Program-made: the position numbers and the translations under genes
Assembly (NCBI GenBank): GCA_950295325.1
Contig: OX485803.1
Coordinates: 19,466,001-19,530,000 of the forward strand
DNA length: 64,000 bases
Direction: 5' to 3'
Source: Polytrichum commune
Lineage: Eukaryota; Streptophyta; Polytrichopsida; Polytrichales; Polytrichaceae
Notes under the pieces: model-generated
Database searches by the model: none
Told to the model about the DNA's origin: nothing
Seen by the model: only the letters and a program-made list of their open reading frames with translations
Part shown: positions 1-62,003 of the stretch, piece after piece
Position numbering within the stretch: position 1 is the stretch's first letter
How the letters are laid out: the number at the start of each line of letters is the position of its first letter

Positions 1-1089
1 ATAATGAATATGACCAATGGGGATGGATATGTAGGGGAAGGTATAAAGGAAGAGAAAAAGAGGGAAGGTAAGAGGATGGGAGTCATCTAGGGTAGCATTT
101 ATACTCCTAGACATTGGACAAATGGTGTTTAACTTCTTGAAGCATGAACATGTTTAGTAAGGTTGGCGCCCATCACCAAAGACCTACCTTCAAGAAACCC
201 TTTCGTATGCTTCAAATGGCCATATCTCCTTCAATCTTGCTTGTTTATTCATGAGCAACCACTTCTAAATGTAGAGATTTCTCAATTGTTGGAATATATT
301 TACCGCCCTAAGTTCAACCGCTCTTCAATTGTCCTAAGTTTGTTTGTCAACGAATTCTCCTTCGATTGGATTTAAGAATTGACCTCGGACCCTTTGAATC
401 CACCTTCTAAAGACATTTATTATGCCACCTCACCCACAATTTCAAGGGAAATGAACGATACAATATTTGAATTCGACATTATTGTTGCCTTAATGTGTCA
501 CCTCGTGGTGTGCTTTGTTGTTGTTTTTGGCTTTAGAAATGGCACGTAATGTGAATGGGGACAAAACCATTGAGTAATTAATACACAAACCCATTGTCAT
601 GTGAATGCTAAAACACATTTTATGCAAAGCACACCGTGAGGATTGATATCATCTTCACAATAACCACTTCGGGGTTTGACCCATATGTGTCCAATACCCA
701 TAGTCCCCGATATTTCCTTTCCAATTTCAAAGATTTTATTTGCACAACATGTGGCTATGAAATGACGAATTTATCATATTCACCTCTTACCACAAGGGAA
801 GATAAAATATGAGCGGAGAGCGATGAATGGTAAACATGTGAGCAATGCGGTCGAATATAGTAATTTGGCATGGTTTTACGGTTCATATTCTAAATTTACC
901 CATTAAATTAATCAAATGTATACATCAAAAAGGGGTTAACATTTTGATTGATAAACCATGAAGAAAGGGGGCCTATTACAAGTAATTGTTGGTTTTTATT
1001 ATGGATATCCAAAATAATTCGGCACATAATGAAAGTAGATGGCAAACATTAAACATCAAATATTGACATGTCACAAACACTGCACTAGC
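1..1089. other. Gene-poor left edge
   Basis: No gene is recognised here. The only open stretch of note (163-375, plus) encodes 70 residues with no family motif and no coding signature. The sequence is AT-rich and unique-looking, without clear terminal repeats. It could be decayed transposon DNA attached to the transposase relic that follows. Confidence 0.4.
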
Positions 1090-2060
1090 ATCACTACTTG
1101 TGTTCAACAACACCGGCAAGCTCAAGTGGTTGCATGATGTCATTGTAGGTATACATCAAAGCGTGAATGAACTTGCTATTATTGTGATCTACCTTACATA
1201 AAAAAAATTGAACACATTAAGAAGGTGTTTCCAGTGTACTCATTTCCCTTCCTTTCTCAGAACATGAGAGGACATTTTGGTGAAGTTTGGGCATGTGCAT
1301 TGTGGGATGCTACCAATCGCAACATAGTGGGATTTGTCATCCTTTGGGATGGTGTTGATGATCACTGCAAATCTTGGACATAGAATGGCGATTGCTCCCA
1401 CAACATAATAATTGTTCATAAGTATAGCACCCTCCCAGAAAGGTTGGATGGGTGTCCGGTTTTAGTGGCACATGAAATTGTCAACAAGGGATGCGGAGTC
1501 GCAATTGTTGAGAGCCTACATGAAGGCAAAAATGCCTTCTTTGTTGTAATCGGAACCCAACATCTTCTAGAGGTAACACCTCCTCCCGCAAGAGATTAGT
1601 TCATATCTTCATCGGCCACAGAGACTATAGGCCATCCTAACCATAATAATTTTTGCTTCCACTCACACAACATTTGATGTCACCGGGGCAAAGCCAACAT
1701 ACATGCTTCACATTGTTGGTTGAACCAAATTCCTTCTTCATCCTTTTGAATGTTGGAACATGGGTACCATGTATCCCATTTTTTACTTTGGCATTGCACA
1801 TGGTAGCAGCCTTCAATTTCAACTACATTGAATGTGGACCTTAATCGGTGCCCTTCCCCCCCCCCCCCCCTTCCCCCTGCGGGCCCCTTTCAACCATGAC
1901 CTATAAGTCACAGTTTGCATGAAGGCTCGAATCAAATCATCCATTGTGGCGTATAGGCATATATTGTTGCAATCATTTGTTGTGGACCGTTTCAACAAGG
2001 TTGCAAGTTGGCATTCTACACGTTCATCAATGTTCATGTCTTGCATAGACAACTAATGCC
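1090..2060 (-). pseudogene. Decayed Mutator-like (SWIM-type) transposase relic
   Basis: Read on the minus strand, this region matches the better preserved transposase at the right end of the window (62,004-64,000). The stretch at 2,052-1,819 keeps the pattern DERxxCxLAxxxxR, followed by a DDLIRAFMQxxxYRxWxKG block, which corresponds to 63,389-63,180. The stretch at 1,822-1,637 matches the Cys-rich block around 62,830-62,640. The part at about 1,440-1,100 matches the region before and through the SWIM finger. Stops and frameshifts break it throughout, and the conserved blocks keep the same order and orientation as the other copy. A run of 14 C at 1,857-1,870 interrupts it. The match was made by eye; the family name rests on the other copy. 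Confidence 0.6.
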
Positions 2061-3339
2061 GGTCATGGAGTCCCAAACCTGGAATTGATGAGAATTAAGT
2101 CAAAGTCACTAAAGGTTTATCAATGCTTAACTTACCATATAAAAATAGTGGTGTTGGATTATCAAAGAATTGTTTCTATATTGACCTACTAGGATGGGTG
2201 GACCAAGCTAGCCTTGTATAGGCCAATCCTAGATTTAGGATAGTGGGTTGCAAGTGCAAACCCTAATTTAGATCCTAAAATTCTTTGAAAATTTGAGAGG
2301 TGGAAAGAGAACGTCCCAAAAAGTTTCACCCGACTAATAAAATAGGCTCTGATACATGACGATCTAACAAGTTGTTAATAGAGTATTTTCTTGAAAAATT
2401 ATCAAACCCACAATTTTGTCCTACTTTACGGATAACTCCAATTAGTATTTTGATTTGCAATTTACAAAATTGAATAGCCTCAAAAGATTTCTAGCAAGGT
2501 TGGCATTTGAAGCACTTGCAAACCCTAAAAAAACAATCTAAAGAGCTATGTGATCCAACCATAAAATTATTCAGATTCGTAACAATGTTATGTGGGACTG
2601 ACAATATTCCACGAAATATTCCCAACATTTAGAATAAATATGGGAAAGACATCACAATATTCTATGGAATATTATCAATCTCACAAAACAATGTTATGGA
2701 TCTGAATAATGTTATGACACTTTGAATGTTGGAAAACAACTGCCATGCGAGAATCCATAGGATCCTAACCGACGCTATAGCGATGCATCGAGATTCTTTT
2801 CCAGACATTAATGAACTACATACTGAATCATATGGGCAACTTCTATTGCATATGAAATATGTATAACAAGCACACAACAAGAGTTTCACATCAATAGAAT
2901 CTTCCAAACAGAAGACCTAAGTGATGAACTTCATTTGTATTTCAGGGCTTTTAAGAGTGTCCACCTGCAAACTTATGAAAAACTTTGATCCATTCTTTTT
3001 GAGCAAGGTCCGTTGAGTAGATACTACTTTATTAGAGCTCAAGAGGAAACACTTGTCACATTCTTGGTTTCTAGTGGAACTACACTAAATATTGTGTTTA
3101 CCATTTAGTGCCATATGGTATTTTATGTCGATGTGTAACTTTTCTTATGACACTTCTATGAATAAGTTTACAAGTATTGTCTTGGATGATTGAAACAAAT
3201 GAATCCATACGAATTATTGCAACAAAGTTTGATATATTTTGCATCTTAATATTTCGCAATGAACTAGTAGAAAACTATGCCCAATAAAACCACAGTCGAA
3301 GTCAGCTGCAGTTCTTTTGACAAGCTTGATTTGTAGTCG
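2061..3339. other. Stretch without a recognised gene
   Basis: AT-rich DNA with only short open frames (for example 2,662-2,907 minus, 81 residues, no motif). No repeat ends, RNA gene or promoter can be supported. From about 3,340 the plus strand becomes strongly C- and A-rich, which marks the start of the LINE relic. Confidence 0.4.
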
Positions 3340-6300
3340 TTCAACTCACACACCTAACTCATAATTTTACCGAACCCTTTTTCCCCCATCCCAACTCCTC
3401 CCATAACCCCCAAGTTCCTTATCCACTCATCAGCATGTCATAAACACCCCTCACTCACTTAGAAAACATTTTACGTCGAAATACTCCTCACTCACTAAAA
3501 CTTGAAATACCTTCTCCTATCACATGATGATATTGAACTCAAACCCAAATCCTTACACTCAATCATGACCGATCTTCCCCATCTTGTAAATAAAAACAAC
3601 TTAAATTATTTTTATCCAACTCCCTCTCCCTACAACCCCAAATGTTTATTCTTGCATATTTGTGCCCCCTAACCCTACATTTCCAAACCTAACACGCGAT
3701 AGCCTTCTTCTATAATCCTGCACGTTCCATCACCTCCCTTTTCAAACTAATCATCATCATTAGTCCATCCCCATCCCAATGTAACCAAGTCCTAACCCAT
3801 AGACCCCACCTATGTTCGGGGGAAACCGACGGCTAGTTCATTATCAACCGATGGATTTCCCCTCATGGCCGGTCCAAATTTCCAACCATCGGATGGCAAT
3901 CCGACTGTAATTTCAATCCTCCGGCAATTAGCCAATGGACCAGAAAATGTCCCGGAAATGTAGCCGGTTCTTCTTGTGAGTTACTGGATTTCAGTCAGAA
4001 GCATGCAGAGCGCTATTTGTCTGGGGCATTTGATGATGCACTTGAGGAAGTACCATGAACCTTAAACTTTTTGAATTATGCAACCTTTCCATGACCAAAT
4101 CCAATTGCTTCTATGAAGAATTGGGGGACCCTTGGCCTTCAAGCGGTGAAGGCATTGCTAGGTTCAGTATCTGCCAAGGATATTAACTCTTCAAATTTCA
4201 AGTTTTGAACATGCCTTTCTTTTCACTTATTCAAGATTTTGTACTAAGAAATGATTTCTAATAACTTTTCATACATTTTTTAAACAATTAGTGCCAATAT
4301 GAATTCCATTTAATCGGATATTGGCCAATGAAAATATGAAAATATAGGCAATTGGCCGATTGATTCTACAAAAGACCGGCTCTTGCCGATGTAAATTGGG
4401 AAAAAGCCGACTCTTCGTAGCAACTACCGGCAATTAGCCACTAAGGCTTCAAAAACCTCCCGAACTCTGGACCCCCCCCCCCCAACACAATCTAGTCCTA
4501 TTACGCCAACTCCGGACTATCTCCCACATTCTCATTCTTTCTAATAAATTGTCATCTCCTCAACAAAGTATCTCCCCCTCACACACCGTCACCACTGCAC
4601 TATACGCACATATCAACTCTCACTTAACTAAAGCCCTAATCCCCACGAAAGTAGAATTAACATGCCTTTTCCCAACCATCCCAATACTCCTTATACTCAA
4701 AGCCCTCAAAAGCACAAAACAAACCTATACTAAGTCCCTCCTACTCCATTCCCCTTCTATATTACTTATCTAAGAAACGATTTCTTAAAAATATATCCAC
4801 TAGATACATATCAAACAATTCCCCCAATATAAGATATTGTATTCTAACACTCCATACCATCTTACATGCGTCCAATGTCCTTACATCTCATTTGCGCCCC
4901 CATGTGGCAGCGTCCTCATCATGATCCACAAATCCTTCTCCTTTCTGAGTAACATCAAAAACTCCCAACATCAGTTGCACTATCACCATACCTCCAAACT
5001 ATTATAACATCTATCCACCCCTTCACCCCCTATCCTCCTTGTCCACCTCTATATGCCCTCTCCTCCAACAGACATCCCCCTCCTACCTCAAATCCAACCT
5101 CACATTCACACCACACTCACCAACAATCCTAACACTTTCTCCATCCTAGCCGATGACTTTAATAGAGAGGCATCCTACTCCAAAGACGCACCTCCAATAA
5201 CCTCCACTCCCCGCCAACACACGAAGACATTACTTGGAACCAATTCACAACTCAACTCTTCGTTTCCCTTGTCGTAAATCCACCTCGATCTCTCACCAAG
5301 GAGACCCAAATTTTACATCCACCAACCTTATTGATGGATTTTACATACCATCACTCCCTTCACTCTATACTCATCTCGTACTAATCTCTTCATGAATTTA
5401 AATTACGATTATATTCCGATTTTCCTCACAATCCCACCCAACACCCTAGTCACATGCATTGCCAACCCACCTCCACCAAGAAAACCTTACGTTCCCTATC
5501 CCATATTGGCCCCCAACTCCACAACTTTATAACATAGTTTATGGAACTCAACCATTTTGAAGTCCTTGACCTAGTCCAAATGTTGGACACTAACTAACTT
5601 CTACCACCGCATACTTGGAATGACACCCAAATCCTACTCCAAATTGTAAATAAACTCCATCTCCACATGCACACTCTATCACCCCTCCCCCCTCCCTCAC
5701 AATGTCTCTAAACTAGGTGGATTCCTCCCTCATAAACTACAATATTGATGGAAGAAATCCCTTCAACACCACCACACCACCACACCATCAAACACGCGAT
5801 ACATTCAATTCCACACACTTCCACACCAAATTGGCATCAACACCCTAACATCCTTGCCCTATACTTCCCCTGACTCCTTCCACCTCCTATTGACTTCCAA
5901 AACATCCAATCTTGGGTCACAAACCTTTCTACCATCGTCGTTGCCACCTGCCACAACACCCAAATAATTGTTACAAAACAAACTACAAAAGAAATGCCAA
6001 AAAACTATTCATAAATACTACCATCTCCTCAACACCAACCTAAATGTATCCTTAACCACATATTCCAATCACATAATTCCTCCAACCTCGACTGCCTCGT
6101 CAATGACCCCCTCTCTTTATCCCATGAAATCTTCACCTCCTAAAGCTCATTGTTGTCAAATATGGCAGTGCACAAGAATTCCCCACCTTGACCTACCATG
6201 CATGTGCCTGCTCCCCCACCTCCTGCACACTATATCTTATGCAATGGGAATACTCAATCAACCTACCATCATCTGACACTACATTCCCCAAAACCGCCTC

Positions 6301-6560
6301 TCCATTACAATAGGATTGGTACAATGGTCCATACTACTATTGCCTAACTTTTGCTCCACGAGATCATGCCTCAAAACCTTTTGCCAAACTAGTTGCCGTC
6401 AGCATTACTCAACTAACCACTAATGATGGATCTCCCATCCTCACTTTGGCTGACTTCAAATTCTACATCACACTACCTCTCCCATCATCAAAGGCGCCCT
6501 TCTTCTACCCCATACCCTATTCCCTCTTAGACTATTTACACCCCACCCCACATCACTGAG
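3340..6560 (+). mobile_element. Old LINE relic A (2A/dual-nuclease family), EN to RT C-terminus
   Basis: This is a heavily decayed copy of the LINE at 6,600-18,600, on the same strand and with the same A/C-rich plus strand. Recognisable pieces are: the end of the first endonuclease block near 4,690-4,770; a remnant of the GDFN box (reads ADDFNRE) near 5,145-5,170 after an LLVHLYM segment; the post-endonuclease block GGFLPHKLQY near 5,720; and a piece matching the C-terminal side of the reverse transcriptase (DGSPILTLADFKFY) near 6,430. The reverse transcriptase core is not seen, so there is probably an internal deletion. A hAT MITE is inserted at 3,810-4,469. It ends where the GC-rich leader of the younger copy begins. 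Confidence 0.65.
3810..4469 (+). mobile_element. hAT-type MITE, copy 1 (660 bp)
   Basis: This 660-bp non-coding element is nearly identical to the one at 26,894-27,552, which is in the opposite orientation. The ends are imperfect inverted repeats: the left begins CTATGTTCGGGGG, and the right, read inward, begins CAGAGTTCGGGAGG. The flanking 8 bases are GACCCCAC (3,802-3,809) and GACCCCCC (4,470-4,477), an 8-bp target duplication with one mismatch. An 8-bp duplication together with CAGAG-type ends is the hAT signature. The 14-bp word CCGGCAATTAGCCA occurs twice inside. It has no transposase and so depends on an element elsewhere. It interrupts LINE relic A. Confidence 0.85.
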
Positions 6561-6599: not shown

Positions 6600-8511
6600 C
6601 ATCATTAATTACATTCTAGTGACCATACTAGAGGATGGAGGAGGCCACACACGGCGAAGCCCTGCTGGTAACCTGCCAGGCTGAAGGAGGTAGGAGAGAG
6701 GGCTAGAGTTGAAGCGGCCGCCGTTGCTCCTCGAATCCTCTCCTCCATCCACCCACCTGCTCAGATGCCGAAAGGGCAACCGTGAAGAAGCTTCCCCCCT
6801 CAAAACACTATATAACTACTACAACAACAACGACACCCATCTCATTCTCTCTGCTGCCACATCCATCGTCGCACTCTCTGCCCATCTGCTGATGCCGAAG
6901 CCGCCACCTGTAGTGCCGTCGAAGCAGCCGAAACCGCCGAAGAACGCCATCCCCGAAGGCCTCCATTCTCTAAAGCAGTCGCCCGCCATTGTTGTCGAAG
7001 GTTGCCATCGAAGTTGAATACAGTCGCTGCCGCACAGCACCGAAACTCCCACCTGCTGCACAACACCGAAACTCCCACCTGCCGCACAGCGCCGAAACTC
7101 CCACCTGCCGCACAGCACCAAAACTCCCACCTGCCGCACAACACCGAAACTCTCAACTGCCACACAACAGCGAGTCTCCCATCTTAAACCACCACTCACC
7201 GAAATCTGAAATCGATCCAACACCAAAATCCATACTCCGAACCAGCACCGGAACCTGCACTGGAATCTGCTCTCCGAAACCAGCACCGAAATCTGTATTC
7301 GAACCTGCACCAAACACCTGCTTCAACCCAACACCAAAATCTTGCTATACACCGAGATCTCATCCGAAATATGACTTTGACCCAGCACCCAACATCGAAA
7401 CCCAGCCTCGATCCAACACCGAGCTTCCACCCTCGAAGCTGATCAGCGGAAAGTCTCTGAAGCCTACTCCCTCTGCGATCTCTACCTCGGTGTGATCTTC
7501 AAATGGTACCGAAATCCTACATCACTCCAGCACCGGGATCTCCACCTCGAACCCAGTACCACGAGTTCTACACTTAGCATTTGGCACCCAACATACAGAG
7601 ATCCTACAGAGATCCTCATCAGCACTACACGCACGCCGATCTCACACTTGCCGAACAGAAGGTGGTCGATGTTGCTTCCTCATGCTTTGATCCAGGTCTA
7701 GAAAATTAGGAAGTTTTGTGATACTTTGGTGATACTTTGAGGGAGTTACTTATACGTGAGGAACACCCCGTGAATACTCGGCATATAGTCTCCGAAACTC
7801 ACACCAGAGCTAGACAACCTTCAAATTCCATTCTAGTTAGCTAAACAAAGATCTGCAAACTAGGTGCTGTCACCCAGAGATACATTCTCAAAAAATCTGC
7901 CTCCTCCTCTCACCATATCTGCAGAGCTGAAGATTGCTTAGAACTTTAGTGAACAGAACACTGTGGAGTGAGGAGAAGCCGAGGCTGCTGAATAAACTTT
8001 GCTGCTATACAACCGCACTGCTGAATTCCTGCGGAGCACGGAGCAATAAGTGTTTGTCGGAGAGCTGCTGCTGCTGCTGCTTGAAACTCTAGAGGAGTTG
8101 CGGAAGAGGAGCTTCTGGAGGGACATTGAGAGACAAAAATCTACCCAAGAAGCAAGCTGGAGCTGAGAAGCTGTGCAGTAAGAAGGTGTTGAGAAGCTGC
8201 GGAGTTGCAAAGTAAGCGGGAGCTGCAGAGCAGTGAAGACAGGCCCTTCCCAGCTAAACCAGAGATCCTGGGAAGAATTTGCACCAACCAAGGTGGAAGA
8301 GAACTACCAAGGAAGAAAAGAAGGTGCTGGGACATCAAGGAGATTGAAGGCGAAGTGTTGCTGCTGGAGCTGTTGCTGACTGCCGTTTTGCTGCCCTTCA
8401 TCCGCTTGGTAAGTGTACACGTTAATTTGTTTTCTCATTATTTGCACATAGGCACACACATAGTCTTAGACACATCATAGCATTGATAGGTTTGTTAGGA
8501 TAGTAAGCAAA
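6600..8511 (+). promoter_or_regulatory. GC-rich leader of the LINE (putative 5' UTR/promoter)
   Basis: Base composition changes sharply near 6,600, from the A/C-rich relic to GC-rich DNA with CTG, CTGC and CCGAAAC words, and becomes AT-rich again after about 8,410. The part at 7,020-7,180 is a 26-bp tandem array, and 7,190-7,640 continues with degenerate CACCGAAATC-type repeats. At 8,410 the sequence reads TTG|GTAAGTGT, a near-ideal splice donor, and an acceptor-like TTATATCAG stands 1 base before the ORF1 ATG at 9,095. A spliced leader joining this region to ORF1 is therefore possible. Open frames here (such as 6,989-7,495) look like by-products of the repeats. The function is inferred from position only. 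Confidence 0.5.
7020..7180 (+). repeat. 26-bp tandem repeat array in the LINE leader
   Basis: About six units of a 26-bp motif, core CACCTGCCGCACAGC followed by GCCGAAACTCC, with a few substitutions per unit. Because 26 is not a multiple of three, each unit shifts frame, and the same DNA reads HLPHSAETP, TCRTAPKLP and PAAQHRNS in rotation. That argues for a role, if any, at the DNA or RNA level, as with promoter monomers in other LINEs. Confidence 0.85.
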
Positions 8512-9129
8512 ATGAAGGTTGCATATGCAACCTACCTTGTTCTCATTATGTGGCTAGTACTAGCCACACCATACTGGATATACTCTCATAGTGTCAACTC
8601 TCACACCACATGGGAATGCCTTACAAACTCTTGCTTTAAAAACACATATAAGAACGGCATAAATCCAAAGGTATGGTATAACAACCTTAATGTTCATATC
8701 ATAAATGAATGTTCCATTAGAAATAATGGATCCGTGGTAGTAACGGTAGATGCTTGTGCTTTTAGTTATACTTGCCTCAAATGCTTAGGAGATGTATGGA
8801 ATGTTAGAGTTGTGACAAATCATAATCTACATAAGAGCACTTACAACCAATTTGTAAATACTAATATGAAGCTTCATATGAATAGGAAAAGGTGTTATAA
8901 AAAGATGAATGGAAGTTGTATTCATACTAGTACTCATATGATGTTAGAACATGCAAATCACTTCTTCTTTCACTCTCAATTCCTAGGAGGCCCACAACTT
9001 AATTTGTGGAAAGGAATTAGAGGAAAAGAAAATAAGAAGTATACCTCATTCAAAACTAAAGTACAAAACGTTTGTTTGCTTTGCTTATATCAGAATGGCA
9101 ACCATCACTCCAACCTCATCATCCCGTAA
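8512..9129 (+). CDS. Possible ORF0: Cys-rich protein with N-terminal signal-like segment
   Basis: An intact 205-residue frame just upstream of ORF1, overlapping the ORF1 start (9,095) by 35 bases. Residues 1-25 are hydrophobic after a short basic start (MKVAYATYLVLIMWLVLATP), like a signal peptide or membrane anchor. The rest has about 11 cysteines and several NxS/T sites (for example NNGS, NGS), consistent with a secreted or luminal protein. I do not recognise the family. No comparable frame was seen in the relic copies, which are too decayed to judge. It could be a chance frame in AT-rich DNA, or lie in an intron if the splice donor near 8,410 is used. Its length without stops and its protein-like composition favour a real, perhaps former, gene. 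Confidence 0.4.
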   Translation: MKVAYATYLVLIMWLVLATPYWIYSHSVNSHTTWECLTNSCFKNTYKNGINPKVWYNNLNVHIINECSIRNNGSVVVTVDACAFSYTCLKCLGDVWNVRVVTNHNLHKSTYNQFVNTNMKLHMNRKRCYKKMNGSCIHTSTHMMLEHANHFFFHSQFLGGPQLNLWKGIRGKENKKYTSFKTKVQNVCLLCLYQNGNHHSNLIIP

Positions 9130-10715
9130 GTTGTTTGAAAATGAAAATATAGATTCTACAAATGGAAAACGTCCAGTGTTTGCTGTGGTATTGTCAAGTC
9201 AAAAAAAGGTTAAAGGAATAGCACCCACTGAGAGAACACGCCCCCCCCTATTGGCTTGGTTTTCAAGCTATGAACACAATTGCAAAATTTGCCAACATGC
9301 CTCTCATTCAAACACCTTCTTTCACTGAGTTAGTAAAAAAAGGTATGTGTGAGTCTGAAGCACATGAAATGGTGGAGTCATCTCCCTCCTTTCCGTTCGT
9401 TGCCCAAGAAGAGTGGCCTTCTATACGAACGGATGGTAAGGAGGGAATGCACTACAATCTCACCCAAATTCCTTCAGATGTGGAAGTGGGTGACCATGGA
9501 TTTGCTTTGGACTATCACATATCTATCCATTTTGAAATTGAAAGAATAGAATTGGATAGAGATGTGATACTCAACTTAACAAAGGATAGACTAAAAACTA
9601 TGAGGATAGAGGTCGGGGAAGTCCTAGGAGAGCCCATAGCTGTCCTTTGTTTTCATGGGACCAAAAGATGGAGTGGAATTATTAAACTCCACCTTAAAAA
9701 CCCTGAAATGGATGAATATGGCCTTCTTTGTGGATTGAGACCTTTCATCCTCAAGCTTGGCCAATTTACACATGCTATAGGCAAAGTGTGTAAATCCTTT
9801 GATACCATTGCAATTGCATCCATGCTCTCCGTCAAAGTCACAACCCCGTCAATCAAGGGTAAAGAATGGTATAATTTGTTTGTAGAAATAGTTGGGGATG
9901 GATTTCGACGGGGCCTTGACTTTAAAATAACGAATGTGCAAAAATCGGCGGATACAGAGTTTGTTTGGATTAAAGCACCCTCTCCAAAGAAAGCCAAAAG
10001 AATTAAAGCACTCAAACTTTCGTTTTTCAATGAAATAGTAGATGTAAACTTTGCAAGTAACGAAAAACTCTCAGAAGATGATAAAGCCCGAAAGAATGCA
10101 CTCATTTTAATTGCCCGTAACCTCAATAAGGTAAACACAACCATGCAAATCGAAGAAGGAATCCGAAAATGCATGGGAGAACTAAATGTTCTCGGTTTTT
10201 ACTTTAGACTTGAGAACGGGAAGCATACGGGCTCGTGCAATGTCCAATGCCTCAACTCGTTTGTCTACAAGAAATTTGTTAAGAAAAATGAAAAAATATT
10301 TGGTAAATATGTTGAATTTACCCCCCATCCAAAAAGTCTAGACGGGATAAATGCACCTAGTAAAGAAGAGCTAGTTAGACTTGGATTTTCAGACGTGAAC
10401 ACCGCACTTGCAAACACCATCCAAGCTCTGGAGAATGGACCGCACCAAAACATCACCAACAAATATCTCAACAAGATGGTAGAAGCAGCGGTAAAAAAAG
10501 GGACAGATGAAATACGAAAGGAAATGGTGCACCTTAAAGGTGAGATTGTGCAAGAGGCAAAGGTTTATGCCGACCATGTGCAAGCGGAGTCAAACAAGAA
10601 TTCCAAGCTCCAAATACAACTCCTTCAAAGACAAATGAAGATTACCTTGGATGCTATCGAAGCGGCTCATCCGGACATATCGGAAATTGAAAACAATATG
10701 GACTTGACAAACTAA
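9095..10715 (+). CDS. LINE ORF1 protein (RNA-binding-like, coiled-coil C-terminus), one homopolymer frameshift
   Basis: The start at ATG 9,095 gives MATITPTSSSRKLF. The frame breaks at the run of nine C at 9,241-9,249, and the second frame, open from about 9,250 with a first Met at 9,270, continues to 10,715; a single-base change in the run would restore one protein of about 540 residues. In the 481-residue main part, roughly 105-150 (FHGTKRWSGIIKLHLKNP) and 290-360 could be two RRM-like folds. Residues 400-470 are charged and likely coiled-coil, which would drive multimer formation. LINE ORF1 proteins bind element RNA and form the RNP. Unlike ORF2, this frame has ordinary G content on the plus strand. 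It is placed as ORF1 by position upstream of ORF2; the domain reading is inferred. Confidence 0.6.
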
Positions 10716-10837
10716 TTTCGACAAACATCCCGGCGGCGTACAATTATAAATTACTTATAGTATATTTATATACTAAAAACAAAAACATAATTAAATTATT
10801 AATATATACTAAACATAAAACCCTACCTATAGTATTC
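10716..10837 (+). other. ORF1-ORF2 spacer
   Basis: A short spacer of 122 bases, very AT-rich after the first 25 bases, with repeated TATAGTAT and TATATACTAA words. No stop-start overlap is present, so any ORF2 translation would need reinitiation or an internal entry mechanism. Confidence 0.5.
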
Positions 10838-10950
10838 ATGAATACTATAACATCAAAAACTCACAAAGAAAAACCCCCCCCCAATACCTCACAAAAACAA
10901 ATCTATTTACTCACAATACAACAATATCCTATCCAATACAACAAAATACA

Positions 10951-11470
10951 CAATACGGCCTCGGCTTACCGGCCTCGCCACAAAATAAAACTAACAAGAT
11001 ATATACACTACCACTCCATCAACCCCATCATTAAAACAATCACAAAGCCTACCCACCAACATACTAAACCTATACACTACCTCCCAAAAACTACACAAAA
11101 AATAATAATTGCCTTACCTAATCTATTTACAAAAAGTAAATATAAACTACTCACCTTAAATAAACTTCACCTCAACATCAAACACCATCACAAACCCTAT
11201 TTCAAACACCTATTAAACCCTCATTCAAAATACCAACCTCACCCAAAAGATATAATGGCCTCGGCCTACCGGCCTCGCCACACAAATAATAACACATACC
11301 ATTTCATAAATAGCTGGAGATCTAACTCAATAACAAGCCAAAAATCTACAAAAAATACAAACTCACACTTCTCACCCAAACAAATAAAAAACATCATACC
11401 CGCTATACCTAACCTCTTTACTACAACCAAGTTCACAATCATAATATATCTAAAAACAAACATGAAAAAT
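10951..11470 (+). repeat. Two-unit 300-bp tandem duplication in the ORF2 leader
   Basis: A 26-base GC-rich core beginning GGCCTCGGC occurs at 10,957-10,982 and 11,257-11,282, exactly 300 bases apart, with one mismatch. In frame it encodes ASAYRPRH both times. Downstream of each core the translation again matches weakly: (I)IIALPNLFTKSKYK near 11,100-11,145 and IIPAIPNLFTTTKF near 11,390-11,430. The repeat length is a multiple of three and both units stay open, so the leader was probably coding. The core is far better conserved than the sequence around it. Confidence 0.75.
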
Positions 11471-11527
11471 CCAAAAACACTCCATTCCCACGGATACTAC
11501 TTTATTAACAAACTAGAATTGCTAAAA

Positions 11528-11557
11528 TGCGGGGACATAGAACCCAACCCCGGACCA
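11528..11557 (+). other. 2A ribosome-skipping motif (CGDIEPNPGP)
   Basis: The in-frame codons TGC GGG GAC ATA GAA CCC AAC CCC GGA CCA give CGDIEPNPGP, preceded by KLELLK. This matches the 2A consensus D(V/I)ExNPGP fully. At 2A sites the ribosome fails to join Gly to Pro, so the upstream leader would separate between 11,554 and 11,555 and ORF2 would begin with Pro. A Met at 11,461 lies 31 codons before the break, and the frame is open upstream to 10,838, so the leader could be about 31 or about 239 residues. 2A motifs near the N-terminus are known in some trypanosome and animal non-LTR elements. Function here is predicted, not shown. Confidence 0.88.
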
Positions 11558-14500
11558 ATGCCTAACATCCTACATACACACCCTGCTACACACAAAAAAA
11601 GAGCCAACATCTACTTCATTCCAAACACTATAAAACTACAACCTGAATACCAACACATAGCAAACACATTTGCCCCCATACTAAAAAATACACATCCACT
11701 ACACCCTCAAGCAATAACCACCTACCCGCATCTACATCAATATATCCAAACACAAAGGCAATCACCGCTAACTCATATGCTATACGCTCTAATCATCACC
11801 ATCCACCCCTCAATAGACACATGCAATAACATACTAGCCCAACCCCAAAATTACCATTTTAATAACATATGGACGAACACATTGATTATTAGACTGGCCA
11901 ACCTCACCAATCCCTCCGAAAGGCATATATCAACACCTCACCCCTACACAACTTTTGTAGAAAACAATCAAGATATAATATACCCAAAAAATTCAATACA
12001 CACAGAGATATACAAATTTATCCACAACCAAGATATAACACCAACACCAATCACCCTTCAAAATAAAATTCCTTTCCTCCCAAATCAATTGGTCACCGAA
12101 GCACTCCGATGCCTAGAAAACATCAACGAATATTCACACCCACCCCCACTCCCAGCTACTCCCACACCAACCCCAAGAATTAACACCGACACCGAACACG
12201 AAACAAACATAATGACATGGAATGTGTCATCACTCAACACATCATTACCAAACCTACAAAGCCTAATAAACAACTCGCTAAATAACACAGCAATCATAGA
12301 TATCCAAGAAACCAAACTAACTGCAAATAAATCTACAAAATACATATAAAACCTATTTCCGGAATTTAAACTCATTTTCAACAACACACATGCACTCACA
12401 AGATGTATACAACAAAGAATGCCTTATACCCCCGGAAGAGGAGGCTTACTTACACTTATCCACAAGAAATATGCATTCCATGGGAATATCACCAAAATTC
12501 CCACGCCAGTAAATATATCCCCATACCTACAAATAATTAAAATAAACAACCATCCACTAATACCTTGGTTAATCATACACATGTACATGTCTATACACTT
12601 AGAAGACATACGCCTCATTCCACACCTTAAGAACGAAATCACTATACACCCCAATCACATGTATATATTATGTGGGGACTTTAACCGAGATATCGCACTT
12701 AGAGGCAGACAAAATAACAACATTAACACCCCTTCACAAGAAGAAGATTACCAATGGAAAATTTTCACCGCATCACTCAACCTAGAATATATTCCAACTA
12801 ACACTAGTATCTACCAGACAAGGAGGTTATAATTACACATCAACAAGTCTAATAGATGGATTCTACATTCATTCACCAGACAACAACAAATTCATTTCTA
12901 CTACAAACACAAACATGAATCTAAACTCAGACAATTATCCAGTTGTACTACATATCCCCCACAACACCCTTATAGCCAGATCCCCACCCCCTACAAACAC
13001 GTCACCAACTAGAATACTAAACCCAATACCACCAGAAAACATTGAAAAATTCAACATAACATCCTTCGAAGAAAACTCTGCACAAATAAAAACCCTTACC
13101 ACCCTACTCGAAAATCACCAACACTTAAGCCCGAATCAATGGGCGGAAGCCTGTACAACTTTCGACCATATGGTATACAAAATTTCAGAAACAATTGAAG
13201 AAACTTGTAAAGCAGACCCACTACCCAACCTTACGAACAGAACATCACAACAAGGTGGATTTTTGCCACGCAAACTTGCGAGAAAATGGAAAAGACACCT
13301 CAACACATATCATCTCATCAGGAAAACCATATACATTGCACAACACGATCCACTTTGGCAAGCACTCCCCATCCTAAACGATATACGAAACCACCAACAC
13401 ACAAACATCCCACACCCACCTGTTACAACGGCACCTCCTATTAAATGGATCGATGCCATAGCAACCATCGCAAAAAATGCAATTAAAGAAGCCAGGAAAA
13501 TCACCACAAAATACACCAAAGACTGCATTCTAAAGGCCGTATCAAAATATCGCCAAATGTATGAAAAAAGCCCAACAAGATAAATCGAAAAGTCTTCAAG
13601 AACACTGAAACCTCACCCCTGGACTCCATCATTGATAGACAAAATAATATATTAACTAACCCAGAAGACATCGCAGCAGAAATATACACGCAACAATCCA
13701 TCAGTAACCGTCCTACAGTTCCCACATGCCAATATCAAAATACACACCCACTACACTGCACATGTGGAGTCCGGAAATATCAATGGCATGACTTAGACGG
13801 ATACATCATTAATAAATGAGGAGAACCCCAAACCCCCCTACACACGTATTTTGACCAAGAAATATACGACTTTTGTCTTGAAAACCTAAGTAATAACAAA
13901 GCCCCAGGCCCATACAAAATACCCAATTCAATTCTAAAAAATATGCCTCCACGCTTCCATAAATTACTCTTCTTATTTTCTAAACATTGTTATAAACAAA
14001 AATAAATCCCTGCATCATGGAAAACCAGTCTAACAGTTTTACTATACAAAAAAGGTAACCCATCACAACTAACAAACCATAGACCTATTGCACTAGCTAA
14101 CACCATATATAAATTCTACACGAGTACATTAACTTCTATCCTATTAGCGTATGGAGAAAAATACCAAATATTACACGATAGTCAAGAAGGGTTTACAGCA
14201 GAGAGAAGCACTTCTAGACAAATCCAATTATTAATCGCAGCGCTTGAAGACGCAAGACTCACGAACCAAGATATATATATTCTTTACATTGACTTCAAAA
14301 ACGCCTTCGGCTCCATTGATCAAGCCAAACTTTTAGCCATAATGAAAGATCTGGGATATCTCACTGACTCCATAAATCTCATAGTAAACATATATTCACA
14401 ATCCTCAACAATATTCATTAGTGAACACTTCGGTAAAACCTTACCAATCCCCATTCAAAGAGGTACAATACAAGGTGATACCCTTAGCCCATATCTATTT

Positions 14501-17500
14501 ATCATATTCCTAGAACCCCTCCTTAGATGGCTACAATAAGGGAATAATGGATACATTTTTGGTACATCTAAAATTAAAATTTCATCAGCAACATATGCAA
14601 ATGACCTAGCAGCAATCGCCAATAAACTAGAGACACTCCAAACACAACTGAACAAACTAGACAAATTCTGCGAATGGGCAGGAATGGATATTGGAATACC
14701 CAAGTGCACAATAACTGGATGCCCAAACAAATCCAAACTTCACCCCACAACCTTTAAAGCCCTAATCCAATCTACCAATATCAACTACAGAAACCAACCT
14801 ATACCAGTCTTAAACCAACATGAACCATACACGTATCTAGGAATAAATCTTGCACCATCATTCAAATGGAAAACACAAATAAATACCACTACAGCTAAAG
14901 TAATAAAACAGTGTCAAGCCCTTATAACATATCCAACTACTATGAAACAAAAAATAAACATGGCAGATACAGTCATACGTGCTGGAATAGCATACAGCTT
15001 CTACGCAGTGCCATACTCCATACCAGCTATCAAAAAACTCGATAAAAAAATTATAGCACTTCACAAAACGATATGCGGAATACCCAAATGCACATCTAAC
15101 ATCGCTATACAACTCCCACACAATCTATTCGGAATCGAAGCATTCTCACTACAAAATGCCTATTTAAGATGCATTGGAGAACAACTACGAGACGCCCTCA
15201 ATGATAAAGGTAGAATTGGGAAAATATATGTTGGTCTACTTCAATTCATACTCGCCAAATATGGGGGCTCTAAAGAAATCACCCGCATTAAATACCACCA
15301 CTGTGTTAGATCACCCATCACTAGAATATTATTTTTGCTTAAACATAAAGCCGGAGTCCACCTAAAAAGTACAATAAACAATTTTCTATTAACCCCATCC
15401 CCACTTGAAACTGCATGGATGCAGGAAGCACAAATGCTTCATGGCCTAAATCCCAACACCTCATTTAAATTACTACACAAACTACTTGTACATAATATAA
15501 TCACACTAGACCAAATTACCATGCCTAATGGCACCATTCTAATGAACCCGGACGAATTCAAAATCTACCACTCCACTCCTTCTAAACTTATCAAAAACGC
15601 ACTTAACACAGCTAATCAATTATTTTGCCACCTCCCTTGTAATCAATGCCCCCTACCATGCCAACAACACCATCCCCCAAGATCCCTAAAAAATAAATAT
15701 ATAATAAGACACCACAATATCCTACCACACCCACCAACCTCCCCCGTACACCCCCCCTAACCTCCCCATCCCCCCTTTACCCCCTCCTCCCAACAACATG
15801 CTTAAAGACCCCCGACAATTTCCCATACACAAAATAATCGATCATAAACAAAAACAATCCAATGACCACAACGGAATAAAAAGAACAGTCATGTCATACT
15901 TATGTCAATGGACTACAACAAATATAACAAATGGCGAACTCAAAGGGTCTTATACCCCTACCGTGAAACCAACACATGTAATCACAACATAGACCTACTT
16001 ATCCATTACTACAAAGAAAGACAACACAAACATTTTTCAAACATAATTAATGCCTACTTCTCCACATAACAACATAGAGACACAAGATACATCACACCAA
16101 CCACAATAATTCCACTAGCACATATTTCTATTAGTGAATGCAACCCAGAAAACGACATCGAAACAAACTTTGACTTGACACCATCCAAACACAATTCGAT
16201 GTCGCTCACATATACGAAGACAATGGCCGACACCTCATTACCATCCCGAAAGCTAGACTAACATGGTTATGGAAACAATACCAATTGGCAAAAAACAACG
16301 CACACGGTCTAGAACCATCTACCCAATCGTTCGAAACTGAAATTGTTTGGTTATACCAAAGGTACAAATACCGTATCCCAAAAAATGACCCACTCAAACG
16401 AGCCCAATATACAATACCAACCGAAATATTAGATCTCCTGATTACAACATTCAATATTAACCACTCATATTTTTCATCCCCAATTATATGTCCCACACAA
16501 TTCACCCAATTCTACTCACCATTCTCGCGAGACATAATATTTGGATCCCTAGGTAAAGCGTTTGACCATAAATGGCAAGGAATCGGTTACGCACACCCTC
16601 ATAATACAACAGACCTACAACAAGCTATTCACTGGGCGCGCATAGCGGCCCAAAATGATCCATATACAATCACTATACTTATATCTCCGGATACTAATTG
16701 GTACCAAAACTCCAACCCACACACAGGCCCATTCCCAGACACACACGTCATTGCCAATTTCGCCGCTGATATGATCACGTATGAGGAACCCACAATACCC
16801 CCCGAGCTCAATATCACAAGAAAAGAACCATCTACCATGCAAATATTTTGTATCCATCACCAAAACAATAACATAGGCACCTACGAACAAATGAAATTAA
16901 TAAACGACATAGCAAATGACCTCCAAATACTACAAAGTCACACACAAACTGCACCACCCACCCCTCCAAACATCACCGTTAACCCTAGTAAAAAATGGGT
17001 CAAATCAAACTATCCAAATACAATCCCACACAATAATATCCCCACCCCACAACTTCCAAACCACCAAACTAACTTACCGCTAAAATTCCACCCCAATTTA
17101 GCTACTACACAGACGGATCCTTTATAAAACCCAAAGAAATTGCCCCTGGGGTATGGAGAAGAGAAAGAGCTGGATACGGTATCTATAGCCCCAAAGGCTT
17201 AAATATCGCCAAAAGACTCCATGGGCATCAAAACATACTACGTGCATAAATGATGGCTATACACAAAACACTAAGAATCATCAATACAAAATTCCCTAAT
17301 GAACCCGCACTCATATTCACAGACAGTCTAAACGTATTATACCTACTCAGCACACAAATTAAACACCCTACTCTCCATAATAGTCACCCCGACCAAACCA
17401 CACTGAACTCCATGGTAAAAATCCTCCAAGACCGTACACAGCCAATCACACTATACAAAGTCAGAGCACACGTCAACATTGACGGTAATGAAAAAGCGGA

Positions 17501-18604
17501 TAAACTAGCAAAAGACGGGTTAGAATTAGAACACAGAATTGCCATCCACCCATACGAACATGCCCACGCCATCCCATACTATTACCAAAAGGACGTATGG
17601 GCCTCGATGGTAGACGTCCCAGACAAAGGCCCAGTAAAATTCTTAGAAAAACAAATTAAAAAATATGATAGGGAAACCAATATAGCAATCATGGCCACAC
17701 AAACCCCCAACACGTGTAAATGGACAGAAAATATAGACATTGACAAAGAACTGTCCAACGAATTCTGGACAAATCCCTTAATCACAGATAAACAAAAATC
17801 TTGCCTTATTAAATTCCGCACAGGAACATACATGGGTAATGCTAGAAAACAAATGTTCTTCGGTCACCAGAGGTACCCCTCTATCACATGCCCTATATGC
17901 AATTCAAACGATCCAGACACTTGGCTACATGTTCTACTGAAATGCAACCAACAACATATACACTCACTACGAATTAAAAGACATAACAAAGCAGTCGGAG
18001 AAATTAGGAAGCTTTTAATCTCGTCCAAAAAATCCCGATGTTTTACTCTCATGAATGCCGGTACCTTCAATAATAAATCCCAAGAAAATACAGTCCCCAA
18101 TTGGCTACTCCCCTGCACATGTAACACACAAAGATGTCATTGCAACGCAAGATTTCGACCTGATATACTCTGCGTTAAAGGATTACCATATCAAAATGAC
18201 CCTCCCATTGACATTGACCCTAACCTCACCATACAATTTATTGAATTCACATATTGTAACGACAGATTTTCCCCAGAAACAATAGAAGCAAAAAACAACA
18301 AATACAAGCCTTTGATTGATAGTATCGCTTCCAGAGGATGGAAAATCGAACCACTTATTGTCATCACAGCTGGGGGCCGAGCTACGGCCCACATCCCATC
18401 TATGAAAATACTAGAAGATAATCTCAAAATACCCCTGGTTACCATCAAAAATACCTTTAAAAACATTAATACCATTGCAATACAATATGCCATGTCCATC
18501 CTCCTCCATAAGAGGAGAATTGAAAACCACCAACCGCTCCCCCAAAACTTAGACCCTCCATAAAACCCAAAAAACTTATATAATATTTAGTATCTATTTA
18601 CAGC

Positions 18605-18776
18605 TCAGAATGAGGGATTGGTGCCGGTTGGTTGGTACAAATTTCTTGCCTTTTACTCACTTGCAGCACCAAGTCACGCGTTACATTTTAGACGATCATA
18701 CGGACTCGACTGAAATCGAACCCGGAACGTCTTAACTCAAACATCCTCCCACAACCAACCGAGGAATCATGACTTG
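18605..18776 (-). mobile_element. Possible tRNA-derived SINE fragment
   Basis: Read on the minus strand from about 18,776, an A-box-like CTCGGTTGGTTG (18,764-18,753) is followed about 30 bases later by a B-box-like GGGTTCGATTTC (18,723-18,712). This is the spacing of a tRNA internal promoter. The flanks do not pair into a full acceptor stem, so it is not a tRNA gene. It lies just past the end of ORF2, in the opposite orientation to the LINE. Without a second copy or a tail, the SINE call is tentative. Confidence 0.35.
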
Positions 18777-19383
18777 GCGTTCACTCACATAACAAAAACA
18801 CTAATTATACCTAAAAGGCATGCACCGCCGTGGGCCATGATCGGCCCACGTTATTTGTTTCTCGGTCACTACAGTGTCCATCCTCGAAAGAGGAGAGTAG
18901 TTTTGTCCCAGCTTCCCCATGTCCTGTGGGCATCGGGTTGTTGGCATTACGAACGGACACTCTATTCACGCCGGCCCCTAAAAGGGACCGGAGTTTCTAT
19001 CTATCTACATTCTAGTAGATCTAATGGATCCTATGTTGCCTTGGTTGTTGACTTCTCCCCCCTCGGACAAAGTCTATAGAACTTTAGGTAGGTTGGAGTT
19101 TCCACCTTCACCTTCTCACCAAGCTTGGAATGAAAAAATCCAATTGAATAATCCATCAAATTGGGCTATCTTGAGCATGTGAAGGCAAAGGGATTAAAAT
19201 CCCTATCTCCTCCTTCCCAAATGGTAGTGCAAGGGCTATTAACCACAATACCCAAACCCTCTTCAATGAACATTAATGTGAAGCAACAAAGTAAAACAAT
19301 TATATGGAAGGTATTGCGTGGAATTCTAGAGGTTCCCATAGCATTTTTTAAGTTCATTTTCTGACTTCCCCTTCAAAACATAA
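18777..19383 (+). other. LINE 3' flank, no gene recognised
   Basis: Contains a 22-bp hairpin at 18,829-18,850 (arms CGTGGGCC and GGCCCACG) and a moderately GC-rich part up to about 19,080. A 101-residue open frame at 18,774-19,079 has no recognisable motif. It may be 3' UTR of the younger LINE or a separate small insertion between it and relic B. Confidence 0.4.
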
Positions 19384-20720
19384 CAACCTCTTCCAACTAT
19401 ATACAGGTATCTCCTACCAATTAAACACGACCCAATAGATACATTCTTTACAAATGGCTCCTTTACCCCCCATAACGATGAAGACCATGGTAATATTGTT
19501 GGTCATGCATATACATGGCAAATCATGCCACTCACATCATTGCTAAACTCCCATGCTACCCAAACATTCTCAAAGTTGAACTCTATGCCCTCCTATCGGC
19601 AGTACAAACCATCTAGCACCTCCCATCTGACACATACATCTTCACCAATAATCTTAATAGCATATACCTACTCAACAACCACATATAAAGGCCATCCTTT
19701 TAACATAACCATTTGCATAGATTATTAATTGCCAACATTGTGTTCCATATTCAAAACTCACCCACCACACCACATTTTGATCCAAAATGTGTGCACCCAT
19801 CAGACGTTTACGGCAAAGACGAAGCGGAAAAACTTGCTAAACTAGGGGCACTAAATGATCCCTTTCCACCTCATTGGTCATACCACCCCCTATTGGCCGG
19901 AGGGCCGCATTACCTCTACCGAACATGATGGCTCCATCCGCAACATCCAAAGAAACGTCCAAAAAGAATACTTGGACTTCATATGTACACGTGCATCCGA
20001 CTGTTTCCCATATGTCAAAAAATGGCTTACCAAGAAAAATATTTACCATCCATGGTCAACCTGAGCACTTCCATCCACCTCGGATGCTCAAATCTTCCAA
20101 CGCTTGAAATGCAGATGCCGCACATATATGGGCAATACCCATAAACCTCTTTGTCTCTAAAAATTTCCGCCTCTCACATGCAATCTTTGCAACACGAACC
20201 CGATGACACATGGGTCTACCTATTTTCCAATTGCTCCAACCAATATCTCAACAACCTATGAACCAATAGACACAACAATATTTTACACGCCCTCCTAAGA
20301 CTCCTCAAATCACACATTGCCCTTGGATGTTACACCATCACACATGCAAATAATGACGATGACACCCCCTTAAATAACACGGTACCTTCGTGGCTATTCC
20401 TATGCATTTGTTATGAATCCAAATGGACATGCTTTGTTAGGCTCCGACCTTATATTCTTTGCATACATGGCACCCTCCCAGGTGCTACCCCACCTTTCCA
20501 CCCATTCCCCATATCCGCATCCAATACATTGAATCCACATATTGCAATAACCGCTTCTATAAGGAAGCCACTACAATCAAACCTTCGAGTACCTCCCTCT
20601 TACCAGACACCTCCAATAGATTGGCAGGATCACCCTAGATCCCATCATCATCACATCAGGTGTTCAGGGTGCCATACATCGCCCATTCATCAACCAACTC
20701 CTAGACGTACAACTCTCTAA
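19384..20720 (+). mobile_element. Old LINE relic B (RNase H to RLE-like domain)
   Basis: Translated pieces follow the C-terminal half of the intact-length ORF2 in order. FFTNGSFTP near 19,443 matches the RNase H YTDGSF block with the first catalytic Asp changed to Asn. YGKDEAEKLAKLGA near 19,809 matches NEKADKLAKDG. A finger remnant TCNLCN lies near 20,180. LRPYILC near 20,445 matches RFRPDILC, and IQYIESTYCNNRF near 20,521 matches the IEFTYC nuclease block. Many stops and frameshifts are present. With relic A on the other side of the younger copy, it may be the other half of one older element split by that insertion, although about 1.3 kb of the expected middle is missing. Confidence 0.7.
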
Positions 20721-26893: not shown

Positions 26894-27552
26894 CAGAGTT
26901 CGGGAGGTTTTGAAGCCTTAGTGGCTAATTGCCGGTAGTTGCTACGGAGAGTCGGATTTTTTCCAATTTACATCGGCAAGAGCCGGTCTTTTGTAGAATC
27001 AATCAGCCAATTGCCTATATTTTCATATTTTCATTGGCCAATATCCGATTAAATGGAATTCATATTGGCATTAATTGTTTAAAAATTGTATGAAAAGTTA
27101 TTAGAAATCATTTCTTAGTACAAAATCTTGAATAAGTGAAAAGAAAGGCATGTTCAAAACTTGAAATTTGAAGAGTTAATATCCTTGGCAGATACTGAAC
27201 CTAGCAATGCCTTCACCGCTTGAAGGCCAAGGGTCCCCCAATTCTTCATAGAAGCAATTGGATTTGGTCATGGAAAGGTTGCATAATTCAAAAAGTTTAA
27301 GGTTCAGGGTACTTCCTCAAGTGCATCATCAAATGCCCCAGACAAATAGCGCTCTGCATGCTTCTGACTGAAATCCAGTAACTCACAAGAAGAATCGGCT
27401 ACATTTCCGGGACATTTTATGGTCCATCGGCTAATTGCCGGAGGATTGAAATTACAGTCGGATTGCCATCCGATGGTTGGAAATTTGGACCGGCCATGAG
27501 GGGAAATCCATCGGTTGATAATGAACTAGCCGTCGGTTTCCCCCGAACATAG
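26894..27552 (-). mobile_element. hAT-type MITE, copy 2 (659 bp) with perfect 8-bp target duplication
   Basis: This is the reverse-orientation partner of the element at 3,810-4,469. It begins CAGAGTTCGGGAGG and ends CCCCCGAACATAG. It is flanked by the perfect direct repeat GTTGGTAG at 26,886-26,893 and 27,553-27,560. The two copies differ by few substitutions and about one base in length, so the burst was recent. No coding capacity. The exact duplication fixes both ends and supports assignment to the hAT superfamily. Confidence 0.92.
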
Positions 27553-27560
27553 GTTGGTAG

Positions 27561-30300: not shown

Positions 30301-30699
30301 TTCATTTATTCATGGCATGTTTTGGAGGTCATGTAACAAGTTGTTGGTTCTCTAGCCTTTGTTTATGGACTAGTATAGAATGTGCATATTGTGTGGCGAT
30401 CATGTTGATTTGTTTGAATGTATTCTTGATTTTAATAACAAGGAGTTTAAATTTTGTTTCTAGGTTTTCCATCGATGGGATGTGTGATGTTGATGTTGCA
30501 CTTGCAACTAAGACCATGAGTAAGGCTATGCTCCATCCTCTTGTTGTGATGTTGTTGATGAGTGATTGCTATTTTGTAGGTTTCTTATTGAGGGTCAAGT
30601 TAACATTGTCAATGTAGATATTCTCGTGGCAATTACACTATACATCTGACTTGGTGGGGGCCGAGTTGTTCATCATCAACTCCACAACAATGATCACTA

Positions 30700-33235: not shown

Positions 33236-33884
33236 AAGGTCTGGAATGGTGGGAAATGTGTTGTGGAAATAGGCGAATCCTATGAAACATATGATGTTTC
33301 ATGTAGTTGGGGTTAGTGCAGGTTGACTTATTGTTTGGGGCTCCTAGTACACAGATGATGCATGGTTTGAGTTTGGCCATACATGTGCAAAGGGTGAGGT
33401 TACATGTCCATTGCAGCAACCATGTTGGAATTGTGTTGTCTTGGGGTCTAGAGTGTTGGTTGCTTGCATTAAAAAGGTTGTAGTATTTTGTATGTATATT
33501 GAATTGGAGAGTGTGGACTATTTTGTGTATTACATTGTTGTGATGGGTTATGCGGAGCCCTTTGATACGTTGGATGGAACATAAAGATAGTAGGTGTGGC
33601 CATATGTCTATTTGGTTATGTGGGCAGAATATGCAATTTGGGTTTGGGTGTGTGGTTGGGCATAATAAGTTTTTCTTTTTTTTCTTTTTTTTTCTCCCTA
33701 ATGGTTGCCCATGTATTGGGTACTCTCCCGACTTAAAGTTATGCATCATAGGTGAGGTTCTTATCATTCTCCCCACTTGGCTTATCCTCGTTGAGTTGAA
33801 TGAAGAGAATTGATATGACAAAATCTTTTGAAATATGATGACGCAAATTATGGTTGTCACTTTTGATTCATGCTTGGTACACAA

Positions 33885-61337: not shown

Positions 61338-62003
61338 GCGACGCTATCTTGTGAGAGGTGAGCAGTGAGCGGCGAGCGGTGAGCAGAAATTTTTTTTTAA
61401 AAATTAAAAAAATTTGATTTTAAAAAAAAAATCAGAATATTTGACTTAATTCTTACACCGAGTAGGACTCTTCGTATAGTTTCTTTACAAATATGACTAA
61501 AAGTAGATGGTACGTTTAACTGTGGATGGTGCCTATAACCGTGGAGTGGAAGAAATTATAAACTTTTGAAAAAACCATCCATAAAAGCGGAAGAAAACGA
61601 AAAAAAAAATTTAGAAAAAAAACTTCCAAAATAATAGGGAACATAAAATAAGGGATAAGAATGTAAATTAAAATTTTAAGTATTTATCCACGAAAACTCA
61701 AAAAAAGGAAAACAGATAATAAAAAAAATGAATTTTTTTTGTCCATATCCTTTTGGATCCGAGACAAGAATATTCTATAGTCACAATTGAGAATAAAAAA
61801 TAGAGAAAAATAGTCATTTTCATGGCAATCCTTTTGTATCCAAGATTGGAAAATTCATGGTTTCATAAATATGATCTTTTAATAATGTGCAGATTCAAAT
61901 ACAAATCAAAGGCAATTCAAATCAATTCCGCTATTTGAAGATGGAATTCACGAACTAAAAAGATCACTACCAAGCACCTTGAAGCATGAAGGAAGTCAAG
62001 GAA
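61338..62003. other. AT-rich spacer downstream of the transposase
   Basis: Very A-rich with poly-T and poly-A runs (61,389-61,430, 61,600-61,625), and a short GTGAGCGGCGAGCGGTGAGC repeat near 61,358-61,383. It probably includes the 3' end of the transposase element, but no terminal inverted repeat could be recognised. Confidence 0.4.

Follow-up and report, generated by a model that had tools for sequence, protein, structure and literature searches.

A probable Dualen/RandI-kind retrotransposon family of Polytrichum commune that joins a 2A motif and a PCIF1-like domain to two nucleases

The window analysed here (64,000 nucleotides of Polytrichum commune contig OX485803.1) holds at 6621-19005 what is very probably a dead member of a non-long-terminal-repeat (non-LTR) retrotransposon family with multiple copies and recent activity, Dualen/RandI-like in having an apurinic/apyrimidinic-type endonuclease (APE) and a restriction-like endonuclease (RLE) in one open reading frame (ORF), ORF2. 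A 2A (StopGo) motif precedes this enzyme and a PCIF1-like domain lies inside it, a combination that we did not find described in the literature searched, an absence that is weak evidence. The initial annotation of this long interspersed nuclear element (LINE) had confined it to 10838..18563; it runs about 4.2 kb further upstream and includes an ORF1. The whole element is flanked by an exact 11-bp repeat, TACATTCTAGT, which occurs on the + strand of the window at two places only, 6610 and 19006. Its parts, all on the + strand, are the following.

6610-6620, +: 5' target site duplication TACATTCTAGT, 11 bp, exact repeat
6621-8511, +: inferred 5' untranslated region with 26-bp tandem repeats at 7001-7208; boundary set by the target duplication
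8512-10715, +: ORF1 with hydrophobic N-terminus, three frames between about 9000 and 9300; from open pieces
10838-11518, +: ORF2 leader, fast-evolving, with repeated ASAYRPRH modules; open frame in copies, ratio of nonsynonymous to synonymous substitution rates (dN/dS) 0.58
11519-11557, +: 2A/StopGo motif LLKCGDIEPNPGP, predicted skip G/P, last codon 11555-11557; from sequence, conservation and dN/dS
11558-12184, +: conserved N-terminal domain of the predicted released ORF2 protein, no known family; dN/dS 0.127
12185-12983, +: APE-type endonuclease, interrupted by a stop and a frameshift in the window copy; Pfam scores just below cut-off, conserved residues
13574-15376, +: reverse transcriptase (RT), active site mutated in the window copy (YAND for YADD); PF00078 and tree
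16195-16791, +: PCIF1-like domain between RT and RNase H, AHPH for the catalytic NPPF; PF12237, profile match and dN/dS
17091-17552, +: RNase H; PF00075, E=6.9e-12
17889-18563, +: CCHC finger and R2-type RLE
18564-19005, +: 3' untranslated region with (TATC)n at its end; common to copies up to the same tail
19006-19016, +: 3' target site duplication, 11 bp, exact repeat

The window copy is considered dead because its ORF2, initially read as one frame, is broken up by several frameshifts and four in-frame stop codons (12347, 13817, 14003 and 14537), and because its RT box reads YAND where intact copies have YADD. The stops checked are TAA and TGA and are absent at these places from intact copies; they are therefore mutations, and an alternative genetic code was rejected. 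Over the part compared, the window copy shares 96% DNA identity with the intact copy c10. In the source genome (407.8 Mb, mostly seven contigs of 42-78 Mb), the first contig opens with (TTTAGGG)n, a telomere repeat of plant type, in agreement with the streptophyte origin assumed initially. Matches to the RT piece number at least 102 including the piece itself, the others at 81-95% identity (102 of 1,956 candidates scored). Three of these matches sit in open frames of 2,625 codons. Counted from its first ATG, ORF2 of copy c11 has 2,576 codons, and its APE motifs TWN, QETK, GDFN and SDH and the RT box YADD are all complete; the 'SDN' read initially is a changed SDH (NSDHYP in c11). The four copies claimed for the window did not hold up: the related fragments found by tblastn at 4819-6478, 19533-20495, 30341-30595 (-) and 33306-33650 (-) share 24-67% protein identity with the element (67% over 21 residues only), and are decayed relatives, the close copies lying elsewhere in the genome.

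Comparison of copies placed the 3' end of the element at the (TATC)n tail. Of 11 sequences compared (10 fetched copies and the window), c20 and c22 do not have the 3' end motif used in the search. A flanking repeat of 11-14 bp was present in 8 of the other 9, against 14 of 179 control positions; the sole failure was c17, where no repeat of that length was found. The boundary of c13 is less sure, as this copy aligns with c10 only from a point well downstream of its repeat. Since the flanks differ among copies, insertion is dispersed. ORF1 is a single frame of 747 codons in c11, and neither its window pieces nor two subfamily C ORF1s gave a Pfam domain above cut-off (one phage family appeared below it). 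In the subfamily B copy c16 (L039+L016), the ORF1-side open frame covers 833-6331 of the joined copy, or 1,833 codons, the first part being rich in Pro, Ser, Thr and His.

The evidence supports the two nucleases proposed initially as real, and shows both to be under purifying selection. The catalytic residues of the APE are conserved in relatives (N in 101/101, E in 95/100, the D of GDFN in 84/87, and D and H of SDH in 55/63 and 60/63, respectively), many of which carry precomputed PF14529 or PF03372 assignments. RT was detected with PF00078 (E=5e-17 on piece 13565-14536, E=3e-30 in the intact copy) and RNase H with PF00075 (E=7e-15 in the intact copy). Downstream in the same protein, the CCHC finger comprises C214, C217, H227 and C232 of piece 17250-18560, and the RLE residues are D at 18162, E at 18243 and K at 18291. 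All the signatures initially listed, including the C-terminal RPD...IEFTYC...KNNKY, were found in place. Profile A3 aligned the whole C-terminus with R2, and profile A4 reached only the CCHC part of R2 (i-E 0.083). Between 2A and APE no Pfam family was found in the intact copy, and a profile of this N-terminal domain had no match in the relatives P0121-P0142; an OTU domain is found in relative P0123 (E=4.5e-5). Dualen/RandI elements have a cysteine protease domain upstream of the APE.

Strong purifying selection begins at 2A and runs through APE, RT, PCIF1-like domain, RNase H and RLE. Between c11 and c16, dN/dS was 0.58 in the leader, 0.095 in 2A (20 codons), 0.127 in the N-terminal domain, 0.076 in APE, 0.066 in RT, 0.096 in the linker after RT, 0.080 in the PCIF1-like domain, 0.30 in the linker before RNase H, 0.058 in RNase H and 0.097 in CCHC plus RLE. 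For the pairs c11-c16, c11-c20 and c16-c20, respectively, values were 0.27, 0.54 and 0.73 over the 48 codons upstream of 2A, 0.09, 0.20 and 0.24 over 16 codons of 2A itself, and 0.11, 0.13 and 0.09 over the 200 codons downstream.

The 2A motif reads CGDIEPNPGP at 11528-11557. It fits the definition (D/G/C/N)(V/I)ExNPGP given in the consulted part of PMC12846837 (DIEPNPGP, with LL..G upstream) and is conserved. Twenty genome copies were selected for their length and diversity. NPGP stands in context in 16 of them, as the full motif in 12 and as GGDIKPNPGP in 4 of subfamily B; L020 has NLGP, and three (L014, L015 and L027) have no NPGP at this place, so that the presence of 2A in other copies was confirmed; the motif also occurs in distant relatives. 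A second sample, 20 copies from the diverged end of 150 matches with duplicates and earlier copies left out, gave 13 NPGP (11 full), 5 HPGP, one NPEP and one NP-stop-P. In the protein database, where the best 120 of 168 relatives were examined, 59 align over the site, 49 of them with NPGP (46 full); for the other 61, local alignments begin after the site, 13 of them directly after the 2A proline, and a few of these 61 may hold unaligned residues there. In 41 rows picked for NPGP and enough flank, conservation was 0.98 for G, D and E, 1.0 for I and 0.34 at the free position, compared with at most 0.68 throughout -43 to -21; a hydrophobic patch at -20, -18, -14, -12 and -11 reached 0.83-0.98. 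Natural variants have P, L, S, T, V, A, C, K, R or I at the free position, H for N, or K for E.

Between RT and RNase H lies a PCIF1-like domain that the initial annotation had missed. PF12237 matched the window copy with E=2.9e-11 (43.7 bits, cut-off 31.1) and the intact copy also above cut-off, and the corresponding profile matches PCIF1 structures (6irx, E=7e-7). Queried with the window domain, phmmer detected the distant relatives P0123, P0124, P0126, P0128, P0130 and P0137 too, with the PF12237 scores of P0123 and P0126 under the cut-off; P0121 and P0136, two of the deep relatives, gave no PF12237 hit at E up to 0.05. PCIF1 is a cap-specific adenosine methyltransferase whose catalytic motif is NPPF. 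At this position the LINE family differs from it in reading AHPH, and the distant P0124 has SPPF. Because NPPF is lost, we did not class the domain as a methyltransferase; judged by its sequence, it probably binds RNA or cap rather than methylating. No description of such a domain in Dualen or other non-LTR elements was found in the literature searched, an absence that carries little weight.

In an RT tree of 28 sequences and 415 columns, with subfamily C left out, the family joins 18 relatives (P0121-P0138; support 97.9/98), several of which carry APE, RNase H and RPD. The L1 proteins, one human and two from plants, formed a clade of their own (99.8/99) and three R2 sequences split off (97.9/100), so that the RT falls outside both. 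The branching between L1 and the family's clade had low support (34.5/40), and the family is a long branch within its clade, with modest support (83.8/82). The proposed new branch is thus upheld as far as separation from L1 and R2 goes, in a tree that holds no authentic Dualen/RandI RT. P0123, a single protein of 3,777 residues, contains 2A, OTU, APE, RT, PCIF1-like domain, RNase H and RPD, and the combination is therefore not confined to the source genome. None of 24 pattern matches in the viral contigs scanned for this clade encodes a relative.

By architecture, the element appears to be a Dualen/RandI-type LINE. These non-LTR retrotransposons, reportedly described by Kojima and Fujiwara in 2005, encode a protein whose APE precedes the RT and which also has RNase H and an R2-type RLE. 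The window family shares this order and differs in having 2A before APE, the PCIF1-like domain between RT and RNase H, and a plant-type host genome. In the parts consulted, PMC4640811 and PMC3636483 define Dualen/RandI by APE plus RLE, and PMC4640811 lists RNase H for them. A 2A in frame with the element's own proteins is also a feature of L1Tc from trypanosomes (Heras 2006) and of LINEs from animals and other multicellular organisms (Odon 2013); those elements are APE-type, as titles in PMC4981915 and PMC11512398 indicate, whereas the window family additionally has an RLE. Among solved structures the RT is nearest to R2 (E=2.9e-31 versus 4.8e-17 for L1), with which the family also shares an RLE with CCHC and RHN motif. 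R2 has neither APE nor RNase H and is specific to ribosomal DNA; in contrast, APE, RNase H and varied flanks belong to the window family.

The leader looks translated despite its fast evolution. In six copies (c10, c11, c12, c16, c18 and c20), chosen for long frames, it runs through 281-905 codons free of in-frame stops, where 15-44 would be expected on average and the other frames have 19-59; c10-c12 are nearly identical, with 0 stops in 281 codons against 16-17 expected. Modules of (M)ASAYRPRH were seen at 10970-11400 of the window and in c20 and c22, their number varying between subfamilies. An ORF2 frame opening just before the ORF1 stop was also seen in the window (10691-10838) and in c11 (L031+L011), c16 and c20 (L043+L020).

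Several points weigh against the reading of a functional 2A before a Dualen/RandI-type enzyme. Both APE matches in the intact copy, though colinear, are just under their cut-offs (PF14529, E=5.8e-6; PF03372, E=3e-5), and the likeness to Dualen is one of architecture. Skipping, nicking and transposition are activities predicted from sequence. The leader frame of c17 and L019 is open for only about 65-70 codons upstream of 2A; the near-identical young pair c10-c11, with few changes, shows no visible constraint; and the 2A dN/dS is based on 16-20 codons and rises to 0.20-0.24 with c20. Among the 18 deep relatives, many of them without N-terminus, the full 2A occurs only in P0123, so that repeated loss and separate gain are both possible. 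In subfamily B, which has intact frames and recent copies, all 4 copies fetched read GGDIKPNPGP, outside the above definition; as the consulted part of PMC12846837, which cites 56% or 26% activity for E-to-Q, does not list E-to-K as a functional variant, 2A may be dispensable in that subfamily. The long open frame of c20 (L020) reads NLGP. These subfamily B and c20 sequences, with the altered forms (NLGP, NPGR and others) in 10 of the 59 relatives aligned among the matches listed, speak for a fossil or chance motif that has no function and lies in low-complexity, AC-rich sequence. We consider that reading improbable, and rejected it on conservation and on the sixfold dN/dS drop from leader to motif (c11 versus c16): the motif is kept in relatives with unrelated leaders, its free position varies between near-invariant neighbours, and HPGP, found in 5 of the 20 diverged copies, has a change (N-to-H) stated in the same source to be more than 95% active in natural contexts. 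Still far less credible is an APE-only, L1-like LINE whose C-terminal zinc-finger region merely resembles the R2 nuclease. The available part of PMC4640811 gives RNase H for plant L1 elements too, and the close-relative profile A2 had no R2 match by sequence in the PDB; the fold predictions of the C-terminus speak against it, and it was rejected given the RT outside the L1 clade and the RLE present. An R2 element without APE was likewise rejected, since APE is present and the RT lies outside the R2 clade.

A further reading, compatible with a 2A-bearing dual-nuclease ORF2, has some chance of being right while being the less likely one: ORF1, leader and ORF2 would form one polyprotein, made by a frameshift, or by initiation at a non-AUG codon, at the ORF1 stop, and 2A would then split it, the leader being a spacer only. 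In c11, c16 and c20, each from a different subfamily, the opening of the ORF2 frame lies 19-77 nt upstream of the ORF1 stop codon and the first ORF2 AUG follows 24-203 codons downstream of that opening. Between c20 and c22 the pre-AUG region is free of stops with dN/dS of 0.50 in frame, as compared with 0.89 and 0.72 in the other frames, which contain stops; this is a single, poorly aligned pair. A canonical slippery heptamer was not found by eye at the overlap, and the copies differ in frame relation (-1 for c11 and c20, +1 for c16). Entry into the ORF2 frame without an AUG is thus possible but unproven.

With the dual-nuclease ORF2 as the preferred reading, the ribosome would skip the Gly-Pro bond at 2A, releasing the leader, and the ORF2 protein would begin with proline. 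This protein would perform target-primed reverse transcription at dispersed sites, where first-strand and second-strand nicking are probably divided between the two nucleases, with the 11-14 bp duplications as the result, while the PCIF1-like domain probably serves in binding. A more elaborate scheme is speculative and, as a whole, rather unlikely: two recodings (AUG-less passage from ORF1 to ORF2, and StopGo) with a degenerate PCIF1-derived domain that reads the cap, favours a full-length capped template and couples 5'-end recognition to the second-strand cut by the RLE.

StopGo is apparently kept under selection in a mobile element of a plant-type genome; for its natural use by plant viruses, the part of PMC12846837 consulted reports no evidence. 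The natural variation in 2A supplies sequences with which StopGo can readily be tested in plants. Intact copies with both nucleases similarly constrained make the question of why a LINE keeps APE and RLE testable by mutating each, and the PCIF1-like domain ties a LINE enzyme to the mRNA-cap machinery and would give a handle on LINE template choice.

Elsewhere in the window, exons of a hybrid histidine kinase gene lie at 43543-50268 (HisKA, E=1.8e-15; Response_reg, E=1.2e-12). At 62000-64000 (-) there are long open pieces, transposase-like by eye, two of which were tested and had no Pfam match. A 650-bp inverted repeat, 98% complementary, occupies 3805-4454 and 26908-27557, 22 kb apart.
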